A stretch of DNA of 41,371 nucleotides. Origin: Aneurinibacillus sp. (GTDB lineage Bacteria > Bacillota > UBA5301 > DYFA01). Shown piece after piece: positions 22,118 through 31,145 of this stretch (the stretch's first letter is position 1; the number at the start of each line of letters is the position of its first letter). The notes under the pieces were generated by a model, which was given only the letters and a program-made list of their open reading frames with translations, was not told the DNA's origin and ran no database searches. The DNA lies in assembly GCA_020725425.1 (NCBI GenBank), contig DYFA01000029.1, positions 1 through 41,371 on the forward strand, given 5' to 3'. Position numbers and translations under genes: made by a program.

Positions 22118-22394
22118 TGAGAAAAGGCGCCCTCGTCCTTCAGGACGGACGGCGCCTCCGCGGTACCACCTGACTTCCCGCGCCGCTCGGCGTGGGCTCT
22201 CGTCTCTGCGGTAACGGGCAGTCCCGGCCAGGCTACTCAGGTCTCCACCCTTCACCTGGCTGGCTCCCGGGCGACCTTCGGGCCTTCCGCCGGGAAGGCT
22301 TGCAGCCTGCGGCCTTCCTCTCTGAGCGGCGGTTCGGGGACCCTACTCCTCCCGCTCATCGCCGGCAGGGTGTAATGACACCCCTGCGTCTATT
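22118..22394 (-). ncRNA. T-box leader (valine) upstream of valS
   Basis: The minus strand shows AGTA near the 5' end, the distal AGAGAG with hairpin (GGAAGGCCGCAGGCTGCAAG...), and the specifier loop GAA-G-GTC with GTC (22275-22273) encoding valine. It continues with CTGCCCGTTACCGC and the T-box AGGTGGTACCGCGG (22171-22158). A terminator (GGCGCC...GGCGCC then TTTT, 22156-22120) follows. Uncharged tRNA-Val should stabilise the antiterminator and switch valS on. It begins about 7 nt after the consensus promoter at 22401-22430. Confidence 0.95.
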
Positions 22395-23222
22395 GTTACC
22401 ATCATAGCCCCGAGGAGTCCGGCCTGTCAACTCCAGCACCGCCACCCACGCTCCCATCGACCCGAGGACAATCAATCCCCTGGGCATGGACTGGGCAAGT
22501 CTTGACGCGATGGCCGGGTTGAGCAAGACGTCTGAGGCGACGCCCGGCAGGTAAGCCAGAGGGAAGTAGGTCAGCGGGTTGCCGGTGATGGAGGTTACGG
22601 ACTGCATCATCACCCCGACCAGGAAGAGTTCCCAAAGCTTACCCGCCGGGTCGGCCTCCCACGGCAATTGAAAGCCGATATGGTGCAGCGAGTAGAGGGC
22701 CGCTCCCAGGACGATTGCCGGCAGGCGGCCGAAGGCCTTGGCGAAGGCCGTCTGCAGAAAACCGTAGTACAGGACCGCCTCGAAGACGCCTGGCGCCAGC
22801 AGCGCCACGAGGGCCCTGGCCGTGCTGACGTCCAGGGCCGGCCTCCGCTCACTGAAGATCAAGCCGAGGGAGATGAAGAGGCCGGTCGCGGCGCCGACGG
22901 CCAGACTCGGCCAGAGGTTATCTCCGGACAGGCCCAAGTCCCGCCAGGAACCCCGCTTCTTCAGGAGCACGTACCAGGTCGGAAGCACCAGCCCACAGCC
23001 CAATACCATCAGGACGTCCCGCAGGAGGATACCAACGGGCAGAAGCCGCGCCTCCCGCCCGAACGGAAGCATCGCCGCGCTCAGGAGGATCGCCAGAAGG
23101 CCGAACCCCAACGCGACCCAGGTCTCCTCGGCGGGTTTCCATCTCACCGCCAGAAACCGCTTCCCGTGTATCCCGAAGGCCACTCCCAGCGCCACCAAGG
23201 CCCACCAGACCAAACCTTCCAC
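22356..23222 (-). CDS. CPBP-like intramembrane protein with altered active-site motif
   Basis: This 288-residue membrane protein has about eight helices and CPBP/Abi-like architecture. The region GVFEAVLYYGFLQTAFAKAFG followed by ALYSLHHIGFQLPW aligns with CPBP motifs 1 (EExxxR) and 2 (FxxxH). Motif 1 here has only one Glu and no Arg, so proteolytic activity is doubtful. GTG 23222 is very close to AGGAGG (TTG 23213 is an alternative). The valS promoter and the first part of the T-box leader lie inside its 3' end. Its last 20 residues are basic (RTPRGYDGNNRRRG) and may be non-conserved. Confidence 0.75.
   Translation of the reverse strand: MEGLVWWALVALGVAFGIHGKRFLAVRWKPAEETWVALGFGLLAILLSAAMLPFGREARLLPVGILLRDVLMVLGCGLVLPTWYVLLKKRGSWRDLGLSGDNLWPSLAVGAATGLFISLGLIFSERRPALDVSTARALVALLAPGVFEAVLYYGFLQTAFAKAFGRLPAIVLGAALYSLHHIGFQLPWEADPAGKLWELFLVGVMMQSVTSITGNPLTYFPLAYLPGVASDVLLNPAIASRLAQSMPRGLIVLGSMGAWVAVLELTGRTPRGYDGNNRRRGVITPCRR
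22401..22430 (-). promoter_or_regulatory. consensus promoter for valS
   Basis: The minus strand reads TTGACA (22430-22425), 18-nt spacer, TATGAT (22406-22401). It lies within the 3' end of the CPBP-like gene and starts the T-box transcript. Confidence 0.88.
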
Positions 23223-23347: not shown

Positions 23348-23650
23348 GTGAGTAAGAGAAAAGCCTCAACCGCAGGGGAAAGCGCTGCCCAGCAGATCAC
23401 GCAACAGTTCGTGGAGAGAATGCAGAGCCTGAATTACGCCACCGAGGACCCTCAGGTAGTCAGCGCCTCGATCCAGCAGTTCACGCGTGACTTGACGGCG
23501 GCCCTGACTCCGTCGGTCTTGGCCAACTACGTGCCGTGCACCAGCAGCGAAGAGTTCCTGAGCCGCTGCAAGGCCTTTGGGGAGTGCATCACCCAAGCCA
23601 AGGACCGGGAGTCCATGTGGAAGGCCTTCGACAAGCTGGCCGGGAGGTAG
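23348..23650 (+). CDS. small soluble protein of unknown function
   Basis: GTG 23348 has AGGAGGGGAG 8 nt upstream, a strong site. The 100-residue product is mostly helical and hydrophilic with a Lys-rich start (SKRKASTAGESAAQQITQQF), two cysteines (VPCTSSEEFLSRCKAFG) plus one in GECITQ, and no signal or membrane segment. I recognise no family. It has its own promoter and a bidirectional-type terminator after it, so it is a single-gene unit, unlike almost everything around it. Codon use resembles the neighbours. Confidence 0.7.
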   Translation: MSKRKASTAGESAAQQITQQFVERMQSLNYATEDPQVVSASIQQFTRDLTAALTPSVLANYVPCTSSEEFLSRCKAFGECITQAKDRESMWKAFDKLAGR

Positions 23651-23724: not shown

Positions 23725-23913
23725 TCAGGAATGTTGTTCCAGACTCCGACGGCCGCTGGCCAACTTGTGGATATCCTCCCGCCGGATCCTGACCGCCCGC
23801 CCGAAGCGGTACATGCAGAGTTTGCCGGCGCGTTCCCAGTTATAAAGCGTGGACCGGGACACCTTGATGTAGCGGCATGCTTCGCGAATGGTCATCCAAT
23901 CGAACTCTGGCAC
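23725..23913 (-). CDS. small HTH DNA-binding protein (excisionase/MerR-like)
   Basis: This 62-residue single-domain protein has the sequence pattern MTIREACRYIKVSRSTLYNWERAGKL, then a wing with YRFGRAVRIRREDIHKL. That is the HTH_17 (excisionase-type, MerR-like winged helix) fold, and the whole protein is just this domain. It is the last gene of the leftward operon at 23725-31145, 24 nt after the aldolase gene, and is followed by a terminator. It might regulate the cluster, or it might belong to a mobile element; no integrase is nearby, which favours the first. Confidence 0.82.
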   Translation of the reverse strand: MPEFDWMTIREACRYIKVSRSTLYNWERAGKLCMYRFGRAVRIRREDIHKLASGRRSLEQHS

Positions 23914-23937
23914 TGGTCGTCCCTCCCAAGGGGCCGC

Positions 23938-24771
23938 CTAGCTCCCCCCGCGGCTCACTGCCGTCCAGTCGGCGCATAGCGCATCCAGGTAGGCGTCGTC
24001 TCTCTCCGCCAGCTGGGGATCGTCCAAGATGCGCCTCACCAGGGCTGAGAGACCTGCCGGGTTCTGGTCCTCGAAGATGTTGCGGCCGATGGCGACGCCC
24101 CTGGCCCCCGCCCGCACCGCGTCCCGGATCATGAGCAGGAGGTCCCTGAGTGAGCCCGCCTTCGGGCCCCCGGCGATGATCACCGGGATGCTGACGGCCG
24201 AGACCACCCCGGAGAAGGTCTCCACCGAGCCGGTATAGTTGACCTTGACGATGTCCGCGCCGAGCTCTTCGGCTATCCTGGCGGCGTGGGCGACCTTGCC
24301 CGGATGGAATTCGCTTTCCTTGGAGCCGTCCCTGACGTACATCATGGCGAGGAGCGGCATCCCCCAGGACTGGCACTGTTCGGATACCCGTCCCAGATCC
24401 CTCAGCATCTCCGGTTCAGCCGGGTCTCCCAGGTTCACGTGGACTGACACGGCCGTCGCTCCGAGTTGAACGGCATGCTCGGGTGAGGCCACCAACTCCT
24501 TCCGGTTGGGGGCGGGGCCCAAGGCCGTGGAGCCAGAGAGGTGGACGATGAGTTCGCAGTCTCCTCCCTTGAGAGCCGGGCCGATCCGCCGTGCGATCCC
24601 CTTGTGGACCACGATCGCGTCGGCCCCGCCGGCGCTGACCGCCTGCACCACCCGGTGCATGTCCTTGAGTCCGCCCACCGCCCCGATCGTGACCCCGTGG
24701 TCCATGGGGACGATGAACAGGCGGTCCGAGCGCTTGAACAACCGGTTAAGTCGGATTTGTCTGCCTTCCAT
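23938..24771 (-). CDS. ADH synthase / GriI-type aldolase (archaeal shikimate aldolase family)
   Basis: This 277-residue class I aldolase belongs to the fructose-bisphosphate aldolase DhnA-like group that includes MJ0400 (2-amino-3,7-dideoxy-D-threo-hept-6-ulosonate synthase) and GriI. The Schiff-base lysine is Lys176 in ADIVKVNYTG. Asp24 lies in VPMDHGVTIG and Tyr145 in MMYVRDGS, with the 31-residue Tyr-Lys spacing of MJ0400. Phosphate-binding loops are IAGGPK and AIGRNIFED. Both types condense aspartate semialdehyde with a ketose phosphate or DHAP. It directly follows the DHQ-synthase-II-like gene. In this cluster a GriI role (3-amino-4-hydroxybenzoate) fits best, but a primary shikimate role is possible. 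Confidence 0.88.
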   Translation of the reverse strand: MEGRQIRLNRLFKRSDRLFIVPMDHGVTIGAVGGLKDMHRVVQAVSAGGADAIVVHKGIARRIGPALKGGDCELIVHLSGSTALGPAPNRKELVASPEHAVQLGATAVSVHVNLGDPAEPEMLRDLGRVSEQCQSWGMPLLAMMYVRDGSKESEFHPGKVAHAARIAEELGADIVKVNYTGSVETFSGVVSAVSIPVIIAGGPKAGSLRDLLLMIRDAVRAGARGVAIGRNIFEDQNPAGLSALVRRILDDPQLAERDDAYLDALCADWTAVSRGGS

Positions 24772-24813
24772 CCCTCGCTGCCCCCTTTGACGTGGGACGC
24801 CCCTTGCGGGACG

Positions 24814-25944
24814 TCACCGTTCGATTATCGTCTCGTCGACCGCTATCCCCACGTGTCGCCCCGGCTTGCACACGTAACTGAGGAGTTCGTCGCCGGGGCG
24901 CAGCTCGGTGGCGTTCTTGGGTTTCTTGTCCGCTCCCATCACCCGGATATGCCAGTCGTCCTGCACGATCACGTTCAGGCGCTGCCCGGCCGCTTCACCC
25001 TCGATGAGGAGCAGCGGCCGCACCTCGATCTTGATCCGGCCAACGGTGAGCGCCCGGGTTTGGCCATCCGTGTTCACGCACAGAACCCGGCTGCCGGCCA
25101 TGAGGTCCGTCAGGTACTGGGCGGTGTTGTTGGGCATCCAGATGTACGAGTGGACCGCCCCGGCGTTGACCCGGAAGGGCCTCAGGTTCATGTAGGGGAG
25201 GTAGTGGGTCTCCGAGCAGATGAAGATGCCCCCGTTCGAGGTCGAGCCGACGATCATCCCTTCGTCCTGGCCCAAGAGTCCCGTGGTGTCGACGCAGGCC
25301 CGGAGGCCCATCCCGATGTGGCGGGTTCCGCTCACGACCAGCGGCTGGAGCTGGAGCGTCCCCCTGTCCTGGTGGACCAGGTACCGGCTGACCTTCAGGA
25401 TCTCCCCCAGGTCGTCGGTGGACAGCAGCACCCCGTCGCTCCCCTGTTCCATCACGCCGAAGGCCACCGCCATGCCTTCGAAGGTTTCCTCCTTCTTCAG
25501 GATCCTGGTCTGGCGGTGGGAGAGCTGGGCCAGGATCAGTTCGAGCGGGATGTTGGTGGGCAGGTCGAACTCCACCACGGCGTAGTCGTGGCGGGAGGCC
25601 TCCTGCCAGGCCCGCTCGAGCGCCTCCTGACTGTCCACCGAGGCGTGCAGGCAAGTGACGAACCCGTCCGCCCGGGCCTGTTTCAGTAGTCCGGGATCGC
25701 TGGAAAGCACGGTCTCTCCCGGTTCAAGGTCCGCCAGGTCGTCCACCCCTGTTACCTCGGTCACCAGTTCGGTCTTGAGCGGGAAGTGGCCAGCTTGGCG
25801 TTGAGCGGTGGTCACTACGACTTTCTGGAGAGCCGAGTTGTTGACGAGGTCCCAGATATCCCGGCGTTCCAGGGGAATTCGGCGTCCGTCGAACCAGATT
25901 TCCCGGTGCCGCAGCGGTTCCATTCCAAGTGTCACACCATACAC
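24814..25944 (-). CDS. 3-dehydroquinate synthase II / GriH-type cyclase
   Basis: This 376-residue protein of the archaeal-type DHQ synthase II family (MJ1249, GriH) is unrelated to bacterial AroB. Family segments include DKKPKNATELRPGDELLSYV near the C-terminus, SSDPGLLKQARADGF, VGSTSNGGIFICSETHYLPY and PFRVNAGAVHSYIWMP. MJ1249 oxidatively deaminates and cyclises the aldolase product to 3-dehydroquinate; GriH cyclises its analogue to 3-amino-4-hydroxybenzoate without deamination. Here it starts 6 nt after a ligase gene and precedes the partner aldolase. The co-encoded ligases and amidohydrolase favour the GriH reaction. The sequence is complete. Confidence 0.88.
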   Translation of the reverse strand: MYGVTLGMEPLRHREIWFDGRRIPLERRDIWDLVNNSALQKVVVTTAQRQAGHFPLKTELVTEVTGVDDLADLEPGETVLSSDPGLLKQARADGFVTCLHASVDSQEALERAWQEASRHDYAVVEFDLPTNIPLELILAQLSHRQTRILKKEETFEGMAVAFGVMEQGSDGVLLSTDDLGEILKVSRYLVHQDRGTLQLQPLVVSGTRHIGMGLRACVDTTGLLGQDEGMIVGSTSNGGIFICSETHYLPYMNLRPFRVNAGAVHSYIWMPNNTAQYLTDLMAGSRVLCVNTDGQTRALTVGRIKIEVRPLLLIEGEAAGQRLNVIVQDDWHIRVMGADKKPKNATELRPGDELLSYVCKPGRHVGIAVDETIIER

Positions 25945-25950
25945 CCCATT

Positions 25951-27213
25951 TCACAGCTTGGTCGTCTTGAGGTGCGCGGAGCGTCGGAGTTCCTCTTCCG
26001 CATAGATGTACCGGGGTTTGCCGACCTCACCGACGGCCAGCAGTTCCTGGCGGTCATAGAGAGTCCCTTTGGGCACGACGTCCACCGCCAGCTCCACCCG
26101 GTACTGGTCGGCCAGGGTGCCGACTAGCCCGGGGAAGACCGGGTCCGCCCCGCTTTCCTGTTCGACCACGAAGTGCAGCCCCCGGCTGGTGGGGGCAACC
26201 ACCCAGAACCGGCGGGACGGCAGATGGGAGATGATCTCCTCGAGGTCCCACAGGTCGAACGACCTGTCTCCCACCCGTACGACGTCCTGGTCGCGGCCTC
26301 GCACCTCCAAGGCCATGCCTCGCCCGCAGGGACACTCCCCGGGGATCCAGCGCGCCCGGTCGCCGGTCAGGTACCGGATGGTGGGCGCAGCCTGACGCCG
26401 GAGCGCCGTCACCACCAGGCGGCCCGTCTGGCCCGGTTCCACACTGGACTGCAGGTCGTCCGCCAGGAGTTCCACGATGAAGAAGCCGTTCCCGGCGACG
26501 TGGAGCCGGCCGTACTCGCAGTCGGCCGCCACGTTGCCGGCTTCGGTCATGCCGTAGAAGTTGAACAGGGGCACTCCCCAGATGCCCTCCAGCAAAGCTC
26601 GCTTGGCAGGGCTCAGGCTCTCGCCGGCCGTGCAGATGGCCCGCAGGGAGGGGAAATCCCGGCGGGGGTTCAAGCCGAGAAGCTCGGCGGTCTCGGCCAG
26701 AAGCAAGGCCTGGAGAGGCAGCCCGGCGAGGACGGTGACGTTCAGCTTTCGCAAGAGGTCGATGATCCGGGGGAAGGGGCTCACGGTCGAACGGCTGCTG
26801 GCCGGTATGGCGCAAGCCCCCTTCATTCGGACGGCCTCGTGAAAGACGTGGGCGGCGCTGGAGATGGCGTAGGGGAAGCGGATCAGGACGATATCCTCCT
26901 CCGTGAGCCTCACCCCGCTGCTGACGATCATCTCCCGGGCGTTGTCCTCCAGGTCTTGTTTGGTGTACCAGCTCGAGACCGGCGTGCCGGTCGTCCCGAA
27001 GGTCTCATGGTACTGGTACAGGTCACTAACCGGCACGCAGAGGAGGCCCCAGGGCGAAGCGGCGCGGAGGTCCTCCTTGGTGGTCAGCGGCAGCTCCCGC
27101 AACTCGTCCAGGGACTTCAAGGGACGGCTGGGCAGCCGATCCCGGTAGAGGTCGCACCGGCGTGCTATCTCGATTGTCCGGTTGAGAGCCAAGAGCTTCT
27201 CCTCCGGCGTCAT
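25951..27213 (-). CDS. PaaK-type adenylate-forming ligase (second copy)
   Basis: This 420-residue member of the phenylacetate-CoA-ligase branch of AMP-forming enzymes has the ATP loop TFGTTGTP at 71-78. YGMTEAG (220-226) and YLTGDRARW (281-289) follow, with a zinc-like CPCGRG at 294-299 and the hinge region EVRGRDQDVVRVGDRSFDLWDLEE. The N-terminal PaaK helix region is shorter than in its neighbour at 28004-29326. The C-terminal lysine may be Lys in GEVGKPRYIY. It likely activates an aromatic acid as adenylate or thioester, with 3-amino-4-hydroxybenzoate the obvious candidate here. Start: ATG 27213. It lies 13 nt after the amidohydrolase gene. Confidence 0.85.
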   Translation of the reverse strand: MTPEEKLLALNRTIEIARRCDLYRDRLPSRPLKSLDELRELPLTTKEDLRAASPWGLLCVPVSDLYQYHETFGTTGTPVSSWYTKQDLEDNAREMIVSSGVRLTEEDIVLIRFPYAISSAAHVFHEAVRMKGACAIPASSRSTVSPFPRIIDLLRKLNVTVLAGLPLQALLLAETAELLGLNPRRDFPSLRAICTAGESLSPAKRALLEGIWGVPLFNFYGMTEAGNVAADCEYGRLHVAGNGFFIVELLADDLQSSVEPGQTGRLVVTALRRQAAPTIRYLTGDRARWIPGECPCGRGMALEVRGRDQDVVRVGDRSFDLWDLEEIISHLPSRRFWVVAPTSRGLHFVVEQESGADPVFPGLVGTLADQYRVELAVDVVPKGTLYDRQELLAVGEVGKPRYIYAEEELRRSAHLKTTKL

Positions 27214-27226
27214 GATGCCACCTCCT

Positions 27227-27991
27227 CTACGCCGGCGCCCAGCCCGTCAGAGCCTGGATGTTGCCCCCCAGGATGCGTTCCAGGGCGTGGTCTGGAGCCT
27301 TAAGGAGCAGGACCTTTTCCAGTTCCGCCTTGGGATGTGAGAGCGGGTACTCGGAACCGAAGATGATCTTGGCCGGCCCGGCCTTGGCCAGCGCCTCCTT
27401 CAGGTGAAGGAAGTTGCCGGTGGAGGTTTCGAGGAAGAAGTTGTCGAGCCGGACCGCCGCCTCCAGACCCTCCTGGTCGGCAGGCCCGAACCCCATGTGC
27501 CCCAAGATGAAGTTGACCTTCGGGAATTCCCTGGCCAAGGCGACGAACCTGGCCGTCGAGGCGCCGGGGCTGTAGAGCACATGGGTGTAGACCGGGAACC
27601 CGTACCTCTCGCAGCAGGCCGCCAGGTCCGCCACCGCCTTGCTGGCAAAAGAGAACTGATGGGTGATCGGCGAGAGCTTCAACCCCCGGAACCCCCTCTC
27701 GAAGGCCGCCTCCAGGCTCTCGACGGCCCCGGGTTCGTGGGGGTCGACGCAGAAGAATCCGCCGACAGAGGCGCCGTGGGTCCGGTAGCATTCCTCCACG
27801 TAGGCGTTGTTCGGCATGGTATTCTCCGGCTTAGCCCGGCCGGTGATGTAGTCGGTCATCTTGCGGACGTCAACCATGCCCCCGGGAACCACCATGGCCC
27901 CCTGGATTCCGCTCTCGGCGAGTTGTTCCAAGAGGAGGTCGACGTTCCCGTAGTCGGTCGGCGAAACGTGCGCATGGGCGTCGATAATCAT
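27227..27991 (-). CDS. amidohydrolase-2-family metal-dependent enzyme, candidate benzoxazole cyclase
   Basis: This 254-residue TIM-barrel protein of the ACMSD/amidohydrolase_2 type has metal ligands His6 and His8 (DAHAH), His137 (YTHVL) and His165 (LGHMGFG). The usual catalytic Asp in the GS(D)YP segment is Glu214 here (IIFGSEYP). RGLKLSP and NIQALTG are standard family features. Family members hydrolyse C-N bonds or decarboxylate. In actinobacterial benzoxazole pathways an amidohydrolase-like protein (NatAM of nataxazole) performs ring closure instead, and that role fits this cluster. ATG 27991 follows AGGAGGGGG. Confidence 0.85.
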   Translation of the reverse strand: MIIDAHAHVSPTDYGNVDLLLEQLAESGIQGAMVVPGGMVDVRKMTDYITGRAKPENTMPNNAYVEECYRTHGASVGGFFCVDPHEPGAVESLEAAFERGFRGLKLSPITHQFSFASKAVADLAACCERYGFPVYTHVLYSPGASTARFVALAREFPKVNFILGHMGFGPADQEGLEAAVRLDNFFLETSTGNFLHLKEALAKAGPAKIIFGSEYPLSHPKAELEKVLLLKAPDHALERILGGNIQALTGWAPA

Positions 27992-28003
27992 CGCTTCCCC
28001 CTC

Positions 28004-29326
28004 CTACTCGTGAACTACCCGGATGGTCTTCGTGACAGGCCGGGGCAGCCGGTCCACGAACTCGAATTCGCAGGGGATGCCGAGGCCGAACTCCATTTTG
28101 CTCGCCAGTCGATCGGCCAGCTCCGGTGTGGGTTCCACTCCCGGCTGCAGCTCGACCCGGATCTTGAGCCGGTCGGCGCCTTCCGGGGGCACCACGAACT
28201 GGTACCACATCCCCACCTCCGGAAGCCGCATCAGAAACTCCTCGAGGTAGAAGGGGGAAAACTCATACCCCTGGAGCACCACTTGGTCCACCTGACGGCC
28301 CCGCAGGAAGAGCCGCGGGAGGGCCACTCCACAAGGGCACTGGTCGTATTCGACATACCCCAGGTCCTGTGTCCGATAGCGGATCAGCGGGGAGCTGTAG
28401 CGCAGGAGGCAGGTGGCCACGATCTCGCCGATTTCTCCCGGCTCCAGCACCTCTCCGGTCTTGGGATCGACGATCTCCACGACGACGTGGGCCAGGGGGA
28501 TGTGGTAGCCGAAGTGCTGGTCGCACTCCATCCCCAGCGCCCCGCATTCGAGCGATCCGTAGTAGAAGTTGGCCGTGGTTCCCCAGATCTTCTCCAAGCG
28601 GTCCCGGAACGCTGGCGAACACCCTTCCCCGGTGATCCACATCCTTTTCAGGGGAAGTTCCTTGAGGTCGAAGCCGGCTTCCCCGGCCGCCTCTGCAAGC
28701 CTCACCGCCCAGGAGGGAGTGGTCATCACGATGGTCGGCTTGAGATCTCTCATGATCCTGACGGTCTTCTCCGGAGTGGAGTAGGCCCCGCCTTTGCCCA
28801 CCGGCACCGCGGTGGCCCCGCAGGCATCCATGAAGACTTTGTGGAAAGCGAGGCCTGCCGAGCTCATCTCATAAGGGAGGGCATTGATGCAGATGTCTCC
28901 CGGTTCGATGGGGACGAGCCTCGGGTAGCCGACGGCCAGGTCGTTGAGGTAGAAGTCTTTCCAGGTGTAGAAGATGTAGATCATCTCTCCCCCGGTCGTT
29001 CCGGTGGAGACGTTGATTACGGAGACGTCCTTCTTGTCGCAGGCCAGGAGAATCCAGGGATCGCCCCGCAGCTCGTCCTTGTCAGTAAAGGGCAGCTTGG
29101 AGAGGTCGGCGACGCTTCGCACCTCCTCCGGCCTCACCCCAGCCTGGTCCATCTTGGCGCGGTAGAACGGACTGTTGGCGTAGGTATGCGCCACCAGTTC
29201 CTTCACAGCTTCGTCCTGGAAAGCCAGCAACTTCTCCACGGGGAGCGCGTCCCCATGCTGGAAGAAATGCTTCTCAATCACGTCCAGGTGGCCCTGGTTC
29301 TTCAGTTTGTCAAGATAGGAACCCAC
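28004..29326 (-). CDS. PaaK-type adenylate-forming ligase (first copy)
   Basis: This 440-residue phenylacetate-CoA-ligase-like enzyme is longer than the copy downstream. It has the N-terminal PaaK helices (HTYANSPFYRAKMDQAG) and the P-loop STGTTGGE at 107-114. YYGSLECG is at 255-262, YRTQDLGY at 317-324 and CPCG at 330-333. The C-terminal catalytic lysine is probably Lys433 in RPVTKTIRVV. Two different ligases in one short cluster suggest that two acids, or two steps, need activation. Start GTG 29326 is 1 nt after the TPR-like gene stop, with GAGGTG upstream. Substrate preference is inferred from context only. Confidence 0.86.
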   Translation of the reverse strand: MGSYLDKLKNQGHLDVIEKHFFQHGDALPVEKLLAFQDEAVKELVAHTYANSPFYRAKMDQAGVRPEEVRSVADLSKLPFTDKDELRGDPWILLACDKKDVSVINVSTGTTGGEMIYIFYTWKDFYLNDLAVGYPRLVPIEPGDICINALPYEMSSAGLAFHKVFMDACGATAVPVGKGGAYSTPEKTVRIMRDLKPTIVMTTPSWAVRLAEAAGEAGFDLKELPLKRMWITGEGCSPAFRDRLEKIWGTTANFYYGSLECGALGMECDQHFGYHIPLAHVVVEIVDPKTGEVLEPGEIGEIVATCLLRYSSPLIRYRTQDLGYVEYDQCPCGVALPRLFLRGRQVDQVVLQGYEFSPFYLEEFLMRLPEVGMWYQFVVPPEGADRLKIRVELQPGVEPTPELADRLASKMEFGLGIPCEFEFVDRLPRPVTKTIRVVHE

Positions 29327-29327
29327 T

Positions 29328-31145
29328 TCAATTCACCTCTTCCGCGCTCACGAGCGTCTGGAATTGCGGGTCGGACGAGACAGCGAGGAGCCTCTTCCAC
29401 ACCTTGCGCGCTTCCTCCGTCTCCCCCGCCCGCTTGAGGGCGCGTCCCAGGTCGTACAGCACCTGCCAGTAAGCCGCCTCCGGGACTCGCCCGTCCCCCT
29501 GTTCATAAGCCGTTTTCACGAAGCGGAAGTCCTTGATCGCCTGCGAGGTCAGGTGGAAGAAGGTGTCGGGCAGCGAATAGCACAGGTAACCCCGCAACAG
29601 GCGGATCCGGGGGTCCGCCCAGTCCTTGCCGACCGCCTTCTTAAGGAGAAGGAGCCCTTCCACCGCCTTGGAAAACATCTCGCTGGGATTGGAGGAATAC
29701 TTTCCAAGCAGCGCCACGGAACTGCCGTAACAGGCCTGGAGCAGGGCGTCCTGGGGAGACAGCTCATAGGCCTGGGACACCAACTGGTGGGCCTGTTCCG
29801 CTGCTCTCCGATTCCCCTCCGCTCCCAACCGGAGCAGGCGCATCGCTTCGTCGAACAGTTGCGTCTCGGTCCACGACACCGGCCTCGCCCACCTCCCGGC
29901 GGAACAACCCCCTAACTTCTCCTGCGCCAGACGCCGCAGGGTGGGGTCGGGCTGCTGGGATAAAAGCCTGGTCCAGGCGGCCTTCGCTTCAGCCGCCATC
30001 CCTAAGCGGTCGTAGCAGACTCCAAGGTCGTAGAGGATCCGCTGGACAGTCGCAGCCGGAAGCGCGTTCGGCTGCTTTTCCAGCAGCGAGAGAAGGTATT
30101 CGAAGTCTGTTATGGCGGTCGTCGAACGGCGGAAAAAGGGCTCCGGCAGGCGGTAGCTATGGTTGCCCCGCAGCAGGCGGAGCCCTAGATGGTCAGGGTG
30201 GCGCGCCACGAGTTGGTCCAGGGTAATCATGGCCTTGATGGCGTTCTCGAACATGAGGCCGGTATCGGACGAGTACTTCCCCACCAGCGACAGGGCGCTG
30301 GCCCGGTAAGCTTCAGCCAAGGCGTTATCCGGTTGCTTACGGCAGATCCGGTCCAACAGTTCAAAGGCCTTTTCGGCGGCTCCGGCGTCGCCGGCCAGGG
30401 CCAGGTCATGCAGGCGGATCCCCTCGGACAACTCCGCGGCATCCACCCCTTCTTTGGTTTTCATGACGCTCTGGGGCCACTTGAGCCGGCCACCGGAGGC
30501 GGCCGGAGGGTCAAAAGGGCGTTCCATCACCCCCTCGGCCTTGAGCAGTTCCCGATACTTGGGCTCCCGCGCGACGGAAAGCAGCTTCTTCCACGTCTCC
30601 CTGGCTTCAGCCGTCCGGCCCACGGTATGATAGGCCTTGCCCAAGTCGAAGAGGATCTGCCAGTAGAAGCCTTCGGCGAACAGGTCCTTGTTCTTTTCGT
30701 AAAGATCGACGAGATGGCGGAAGTCTTCCACCGCGGTAGAGGTTCGATGGAAATACATCTCCGGCAGCCGATAGCAGACATAGGCGCGCAGGGTTCTGAC
30801 CGTAACGTTGTCGGGCGCAGCCCGCACGGCCTGGTCAAGGATCTTCAGGCCGCGCATGCCCAAGGAGAACCGTTCGTTTTGGTCGATGGCATCCCGCCCC
30901 ATCAGAGCCGTGGCGCTGCCGAAGTAGGCCTGTGCGACTGGGTCCTCGGGGTTGGCCAGGTGAGCAGCCTTCAAGAGTTCGTAGGCCTTCTTGGTGGCGC
31001 CTTTATCCCCTTTAACCGCCAAGTCATGAAACTCGATGCCCTGTGCGAGCGTCGCCTCCCGTGGCGGTGAACTGGGCTGGGTTGAACCGGGCACAGCATA
31101 GACCGGACCCTTCCGCCAACCGGTGAATCCTGAATGTGGCATCAC
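29328..31145 (-). CDS. triplicated TPR-like repeat protein, unknown function
   Basis: This 605-residue soluble protein consists of three copies of a module of about 180 residues (roughly 35-205, 230-405 and 420-600). Each begins with a (H)DLA..GD.GA..KA(F/Y)ELL pattern and continues with AQAYFGS..(A/S)L.GK and a (G/A)(L/M)..LD..V segment. (R)LLRGY.CYRLP(E/D).FFHRT(S)TAI.DF and ILYDLGKAY...G...EA...W.(R/K)LLS follow, and a diverged linker separates the copies. The segments look like helical hairpins of TPR type. There is no signal peptide or enzymatic motif. It heads the cluster, with GTG 31145 behind AGGAGG. It might scaffold the enzymes or bind the product, but no homologue of known role comes to mind. 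Confidence 0.85.
   Translation of the reverse strand: MMPHSGFTGWRKGPVYAVPGSTQPSSPPREATLAQGIEFHDLAVKGDKGATKKAYELLKAAHLANPEDPVAQAYFGSATALMGRDAIDQNERFSLGMRGLKILDQAVRAAPDNVTVRTLRAYVCYRLPEMYFHRTSTAVEDFRHLVDLYEKNKDLFAEGFYWQILFDLGKAYHTVGRTAEARETWKKLLSVAREPKYRELLKAEGVMERPFDPPAASGGRLKWPQSVMKTKEGVDAAELSEGIRLHDLALAGDAGAAEKAFELLDRICRKQPDNALAEAYRASALSLVGKYSSDTGLMFENAIKAMITLDQLVARHPDHLGLRLLRGNHSYRLPEPFFRRSTTAITDFEYLLSLLEKQPNALPAATVQRILYDLGVCYDRLGMAAEAKAAWTRLLSQQPDPTLRRLAQEKLGGCSAGRWARPVSWTETQLFDEAMRLLRLGAEGNRRAAEQAHQLVSQAYELSPQDALLQACYGSSVALLGKYSSNPSEMFSKAVEGLLLLKKAVGKDWADPRIRLLRGYLCYSLPDTFFHLTSQAIKDFRFVKTAYEQGDGRVPEAAYWQVLYDLGRALKRAGETEEARKVWKRLLAVSSDPQFQTLVSAEEVN

Follow-up and report, generated by a model that had tools for sequence, protein, structure and literature searches.

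The window analyzed here, a contig of 41,371 nucleotides from the spore-forming Firmicute Aneurinibacillus sp. (DYFA01000029.1), carries a seven-gene operon that we predict to make a benzoxazole-type aryl metabolite by the logic of closoxazole biosynthesis, in a variant with a lineage-specific TPR partner. We put the probability of this reading, whose chemistry is predicted by homology, at roughly three in four. A benzoxazole-type cluster had been proposed from the DNA alone; comparison with known enzymes supported that proposal and assigned the operon to the closoxazole kind, not the nataxazole kind.

Organization of the operon

All seven genes lie on the minus strand between positions 23725 and 31145 (Table 1). 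In the 5' to 3' direction, they encode the TPR protein, ligase 1, the amidohydrolase, ligase 2, the DHQ-synthase-II-like protein, the aldolase and the HTH protein, with spacers of 1, 12, 13, 6, 42 and 24 bp from first to last. Seven tightly spaced genes had been predicted at this locus; all were present with gaps of 1-42 bp, and their families agreed with the prediction: DeoC/ADH synthase, PF01959, two PaaK-type AMP-binding proteins, Amidohydro_2, TPR and HTH_17. Six of the seven genes displayed codon-position composition of the coding type, the HTH gene, too short for scoring, being the exception. The DHQ-synthase-II-like gene may actually start at the ATG at position 25923. The operon is not a chance arrangement, since dozens of genomes carry the same set of genes. 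A search of viral contigs found no relatives, and a search of related clusters found no counterpart of the HTH protein.

Table 1. Genes of the operon and the neighboring protease gene in the window
Feature	Position	Strand	Basis
Triple-module TPR-like protein, 605 aa (first gene of the operon)	29328..31145	-	Pfam TPR; three ~180-aa helical modules
Ligase 1, PaaK-type adenylate-forming, 440 aa; putative ClxC/PfxA counterpart	28004..29326	-	Family models; ligase tree; pfxA position
Condensing-amidohydrolase homologue, 254 aa; putative ClxD/PfxB counterpart	27227..27991	-	Amidohydro_2; conserved active-site residues
Ligase 2, ClxA/PfxC-type, 420 aa	25951..27213	-	Best solved match 9s3l; ClxA residues; tree
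DHQ-synthase-II-family protein; putative 3-amino-4-hydroxybenzoate synthase (ClxB/PfxD/GriH type)	24814..25944	-	PF01959 E 1e-97; tree; alignment
Aldolase, DeoC/ADH synthase family	23938..24771	-	TIGR01949 317 bits (cut-off 299); MJ0400 E 3e-73
Small HTH_17 (MerR/excisionase-like) protein, 62 aa, GTG start (last gene of the operon)	23725..23913	-	PF12728 E 1e-13
CPBP (Rce1-like) intramembrane protease, own transcript	22356..23222	-	Family match

Homologues of the CPBP protease adjoin clusters in 7 of 20 cluster genomes, as opposed to 4 of 379 others (Fisher 7.5e-8). Between the protease gene and the operon, the window contains a gene for a 100-aa protein without a family match (positions 23348-23650, plus strand), which is transcribed toward the operon and away from the CPBP gene.

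Comparison with known clusters

Two clusters for closoxazoles, a kind of benzoxazole antibiotic, have been described, one of which was reconstituted in vitro (PMC12118335). In pfxABCDE of Pyxidicoccus fallax, PfxC joins two 3-amino-4-hydroxybenzoate units, PfxB closes the oxazole and PfxA attaches a third unit, so that the three enzymes together yield closoxazole A in vitro; for PfxD and PfxE, roles as precursor synthase and aldolase, respectively, are presumed (PMC12118335). The operon in the window shares with pfxABCDE the five enzyme types and their order (ligase, amidohydrolase, ligase, synthase, aldolase), but it is extended by a TPR gene at its start and an HTH gene at its end, and its sequences form part of a separate Firmicute clade in trees that were built without the Pfx sequences themselves. 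The enzyme set is likewise that of clxA-E from Clostridium cavendishii (PMC12118335, PMC12519233), ligase 2 being homologous to ClxA, although no TPR protein has been described for that cluster. Because the clx and pfx gene orders differ (PMC12118335) and the window has the pfx order, its arrangement is unlike that of clx.

Two other kinds of clusters were considered. The nataxazole proteins NatL2 and NatAM share with the operon the logic of an AMP ligase combined with a condensing amidohydrolase, but NatL2 uses 3-hydroxyanthranilate and ligase 2 falls outside its lineage; ClxD and NatAM are themselves only distantly similar, at 18.4% (PMC12118335). GriI/GriH of grixazone and BagB/BagC of bagremycin/ferroverdin biosynthesis resemble the pair of aldolase and DHQ-synthase-II-like protein, but the enzymes acting downstream differ.

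Two groups of related clusters

The survey covered 399 genomes of the phylum and a scan of named genomes with an amidohydrolase alignment. The scan split the clusters into two groups, with 56-74% identity (group i) and 41-47% identity (group ii) to the amidohydrolase in the window. Group i includes Peptococcaceae, Thermincola, Heliobacterium, Heliophilum, Heliorestis, Syntrophomonas zehnderi and Ammonifex, as well as Metabacillus, Brevibacillus, Rossellomorea, Aquisalibacillus and Filobacillus. Group ii includes Anaerobacterium, Lachnospiraceae, Paenibacillus, Sporosarcina, Acidovorax, Sorangium and Spirochaetes. The host, originally proposed as a new element, is one among many carriers.

The ligase tree contained two lineages, each uniting the clade of the window with closoxazole-type clusters. 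The group-i clade was well supported in both (100/99 and 100/100), and ClxA grouped with group ii. Group i also stayed together in quick trees of the amidohydrolase and the synthase. As judged from these phylogenies, the cluster in the window is a member of a separate Firmicute clade, related to the clx type but distinct from it.

Ligases and amidohydrolase

The best match of ligase 2 among solved structures was 9s3l (E 4e-79). We identify this entry as ClxA, since it has Y218, Y219, T222, N226, S118, P120 and K140 at the numbered positions of the published ClxA, whose structure and contact residues have been reported (PMC12519233). Ligase 2 scored 270 bits against ClxA and 186 bits against NatL2, which, together with the pfxABCDE gene order, argues for a cluster of the closoxazole over the nataxazole kind. 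In the tree, NatL2, represented by a single long-branched sequence, fell outside the clade of ClxA and the ligase in the window (95/85). Ligase 1 lies in the second lineage, within a 21-row clade with a support of 100/100, and its tentative assignment as a ClxC/PfxA counterpart was made via closoxazole-like clusters.

Residues S118, Y219, T222, N226, D281 and K393 of ClxA, which make contacts with AMP and 3-amino-4-hydroxybenzoate, are all retained in the alignment with ligase 2, whereas K140, placed at the acceptor carboxylate by docking, is replaced by a serine with an adjacent arginine. N226 touches the 4-hydroxyl of the substrate (PMC12519233). Ligase 2 has an asparagine at this position and thereby appears to fit 3-amino-4-hydroxybenzoate as a substrate, whereas most other members of its clade, and NatL2, have a threonine. 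Donor acids may therefore vary within the clade.

In the amidohydrolase, H6, H8, K105, H137, H165 and E214, which include metal-type residues, are invariant in both cluster groups; the position of E214 is occupied by an aspartate in the nearest solved relative. The AlphaFold2 model (pLDDT 95) has the fold of aromatic-acid amidohydrolases, which is that of aromatic-acid decarboxylases and hydrolases. The protein is 41-47% identical to its counterparts from closoxazole-like clusters, through which a likeness to ClxD and PfxB is predicted.

This fold bears on an alternative in which the operon would turn 3-amino-4-hydroxybenzoate into an aryl ester or amide and no benzoxazole would form: the amidohydrolase would trim, decarboxylate or hydrolyze, or the product would be an ester of the bagremycin/ferroverdin type. 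The threonine found in most relatives at ClxA position 226 points the same way by suggesting other donor acids, as does the best NCBIfam model for ligase 2, the bagremycin/ferroverdin synthetase BagE/FevW. However, ligase 2 scored only 204 bits against this model, far under its cut-off of 800, ClxA is the nearest relative among solved structures, and agreement with the closoxazole set extends to the amidohydrolase, both ligases and the precursor genes. We therefore consider this alternative unlikely.

Origin of the aryl precursor

Pairs of an aldolase and a DHQ-synthase-II-like protein, GriI/GriH and BagB/BagC, yield 3-amino-4-hydroxybenzoate. The corresponding genes are adjacent in the window and would have the same function. 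Their products scored well under the cut-offs of the BagB and BagC models (212 vs 500 and 243 vs 750 bits), and NCBIfam models failed to separate 3,4-AHBA synthase from DHQ synthase II, the scores being too close. Since sequence models cannot tell the two synthases apart, we infer the precursor from gene context. The synthase tree placed the protein with closoxazole-type relatives. For ligase 1, the amidohydrolase, the synthase and the aldolase, comparisons were made with look-alike clusters and not with the characterized Clx/Pfx enzymes.

The aldolase exceeds the TIGR01949 cut-off and its partner matches PF01959, which, given that both synthase functions look alike to HMMs, would also suit a shikimate entry of the archaeal/Desulfovibrio type next to unrelated aromatic-acid enzymes. 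The original prediction had named a genome without aroF and aroB as the case against it, but the genome has both aroB (369 bits, full-score) and DAHP synthases (279 and 252 bits) elsewhere, and the pair is thus not its shikimate entry. Moreover, PF01959 tracks the amidohydrolase across the 399 genomes: it was above cut-off in 18, of which 17 had an amidohydrolase of the window type and the remaining one (G196) carries a closoxazole-like cluster. The operon is also conserved together with its ligases, leaving a role in shikimate synthesis extremely improbable.

The TPR protein

A triplicated TPR-like protein had been predicted, and the three modules of ~180 residues indeed share 33-38% pairwise identity. 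It had been proposed as a new element; it is not confined to this host and proved to be a constant partner across a whole Firmicute lineage of clusters. The amidohydrolase (E < 1e-120) and the TPR protein (E < 1e-100) pick out the identical 20 of 399 genomes, with next-best matches of 1e-82, of group-ii type, for the amidohydrolase and 1e-46 or weaker for the TPR protein. The Fisher p of this co-occurrence, 4e-34, is overstated owing to close relationships between some of the genomes. Among named group-i loci, the TPR gene was visible in 45 of 49; of the four exceptions, three are truncated at the end of a contig, and one has its TPR gene on another contig. None of the 13 group-ii loci checked contained the triple protein, and small genes of TPR-like type, present in Bacilli clusters of this group, showed weak similarity to the TPR module of the window (E 0.001-0.06). 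The triple-module TPR protein is the distinguishing feature of the clade.

Its AlphaFold2 model is all-helical (mean pLDDT 86), and a Foldseek search against the PDB returned generic TPR matches alone (TM <= 0.25 by query length). It probably has no enzymatic activity and serves as a scaffold or binding partner required by this lineage's version of the pathway. Lone TPR modules were also seen in other settings: beside an FAD amine-oxidase-like protein and a PadR regulator in L164-L166 (families checked in L164 only), and within a GCS2/ATP-grasp/radical-SAM/QueC-like cluster in L032/L167.

Variation among relatives

Some clusters are incomplete, which weakens the closoxazole-type reading. Three genomes, G043 (L031/L125), G387 (L066/L082) and G195 (L073), have the TPR protein, the amidohydrolase and one or more ligases, but a PF01959 protein was not found in their assemblies. 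Loci of the Metabacillus litoralis type and of M. crassostreae (L104, L106 and L110) consist of TPR, TPR, amidohydrolase, synthase and aldolase genes without ligases within 20 kb; the ligases may be located elsewhere in the genome.

LIV-type importers adjoin the clusters of G043 and G387, both of which are without the synthase, and also flank other loci. An NMT1/SsuA-type solute-binding gene was found near the amidohydrolase in six Firmicute loci (L085, L086, L097, L099, L108 and L126), none of which showed a ClxA-type ligase within the stretch examined. The importer-bearing loci would be consistent with uptake of a different aryl building block. Such importers, together with the three genomes missing the synthase, could also point to catabolism or salvage, with aromatic acids being imported and activated by the products of the cluster. 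The operon in the window, however, has no importer, genes for aryl-precursor biosynthesis are part of the canonical operon, and no ring-reducing or ring-cleaving genes were found among the neighbors tested. We regard a catabolic role as very unlikely.

Further genes accompany individual clusters. The spirochaete locus L142 also has an NMT1/SsuA-type solute-binding gene near the amidohydrolase. An amidase gene (PF01425) is inserted in the operon in L092, L098 and L102 (between ligase 1 and the amidohydrolase) and lies near L103. A LysM-CAP (YkwD-like) gene occurs near the Metabacillus/Bacillus clusters L101, L104, L106, L107, L109, L110, L111 and L114.

Proposed pathway

By closoxazole logic, the aldolase would combine aspartate semialdehyde and a triose phosphate into a C7 aminosugar acid, which the DHQ-synthase-II-like enzyme would cyclize to 3-amino-4-hydroxybenzoate. 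Ligase 2 would adenylate an aryl acid and link it to a second unit through that unit's phenol or amine, the metal-dependent amidohydrolase would close the oxazole ring by condensation, and ligase 1 would attach another aryl unit at the carboxylate.

A possible link to sporulation

SpoIVA was present in 19 of 20 cluster genomes, the exception being 75% complete, but also in 190 of 220 in the phylum, and it is therefore uninformative as a link to sporulation. We also searched for a SigK-like promoter motif of the mother-cell type (AC-N16/17-CATAnnnT), which occurred in 14 of 29 operon upstream regions as opposed to 17 of 235 others; at about one locus per lineage, with lineages grouped by eye, the count was 5 of 20 (Fisher 0.02). 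The motif precedes the operon by 72-112 bp in Brevibacillus, Syntrophomonas, one Peptococcaceae locus and relatives from Metabacillus and Bacillus, at a frequency above background, and was not found in the window. Given that SpoIVA is common to most of the phylum and the motif is missing in the window, a role in the spore is no more than a lead. It is conceivable, if rather doubtful, that the TPR-linked clade represents a distinct benzoxazole pathway of endospore formers whose expression is induced in the mother cell. The aryl ligases or their product would then need the TPR protein as a scaffold or carrier, and the spore would make use of the metabolite, e.g., for UV screening or metal binding.

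Should the predicted chemistry hold, closoxazole-type benzoxazole biosynthesis would be widespread, though patchily distributed, among spore-forming Firmicutes. Cultured carriers, among them Heliobacterium, Metabacillus, Brevibacillus and Syntrophomonas, allow immediate searches for the product. The distribution also raises a specific question: why the enzymes are accompanied in every genome examined by a TPR protein that is apparently not an enzyme itself.
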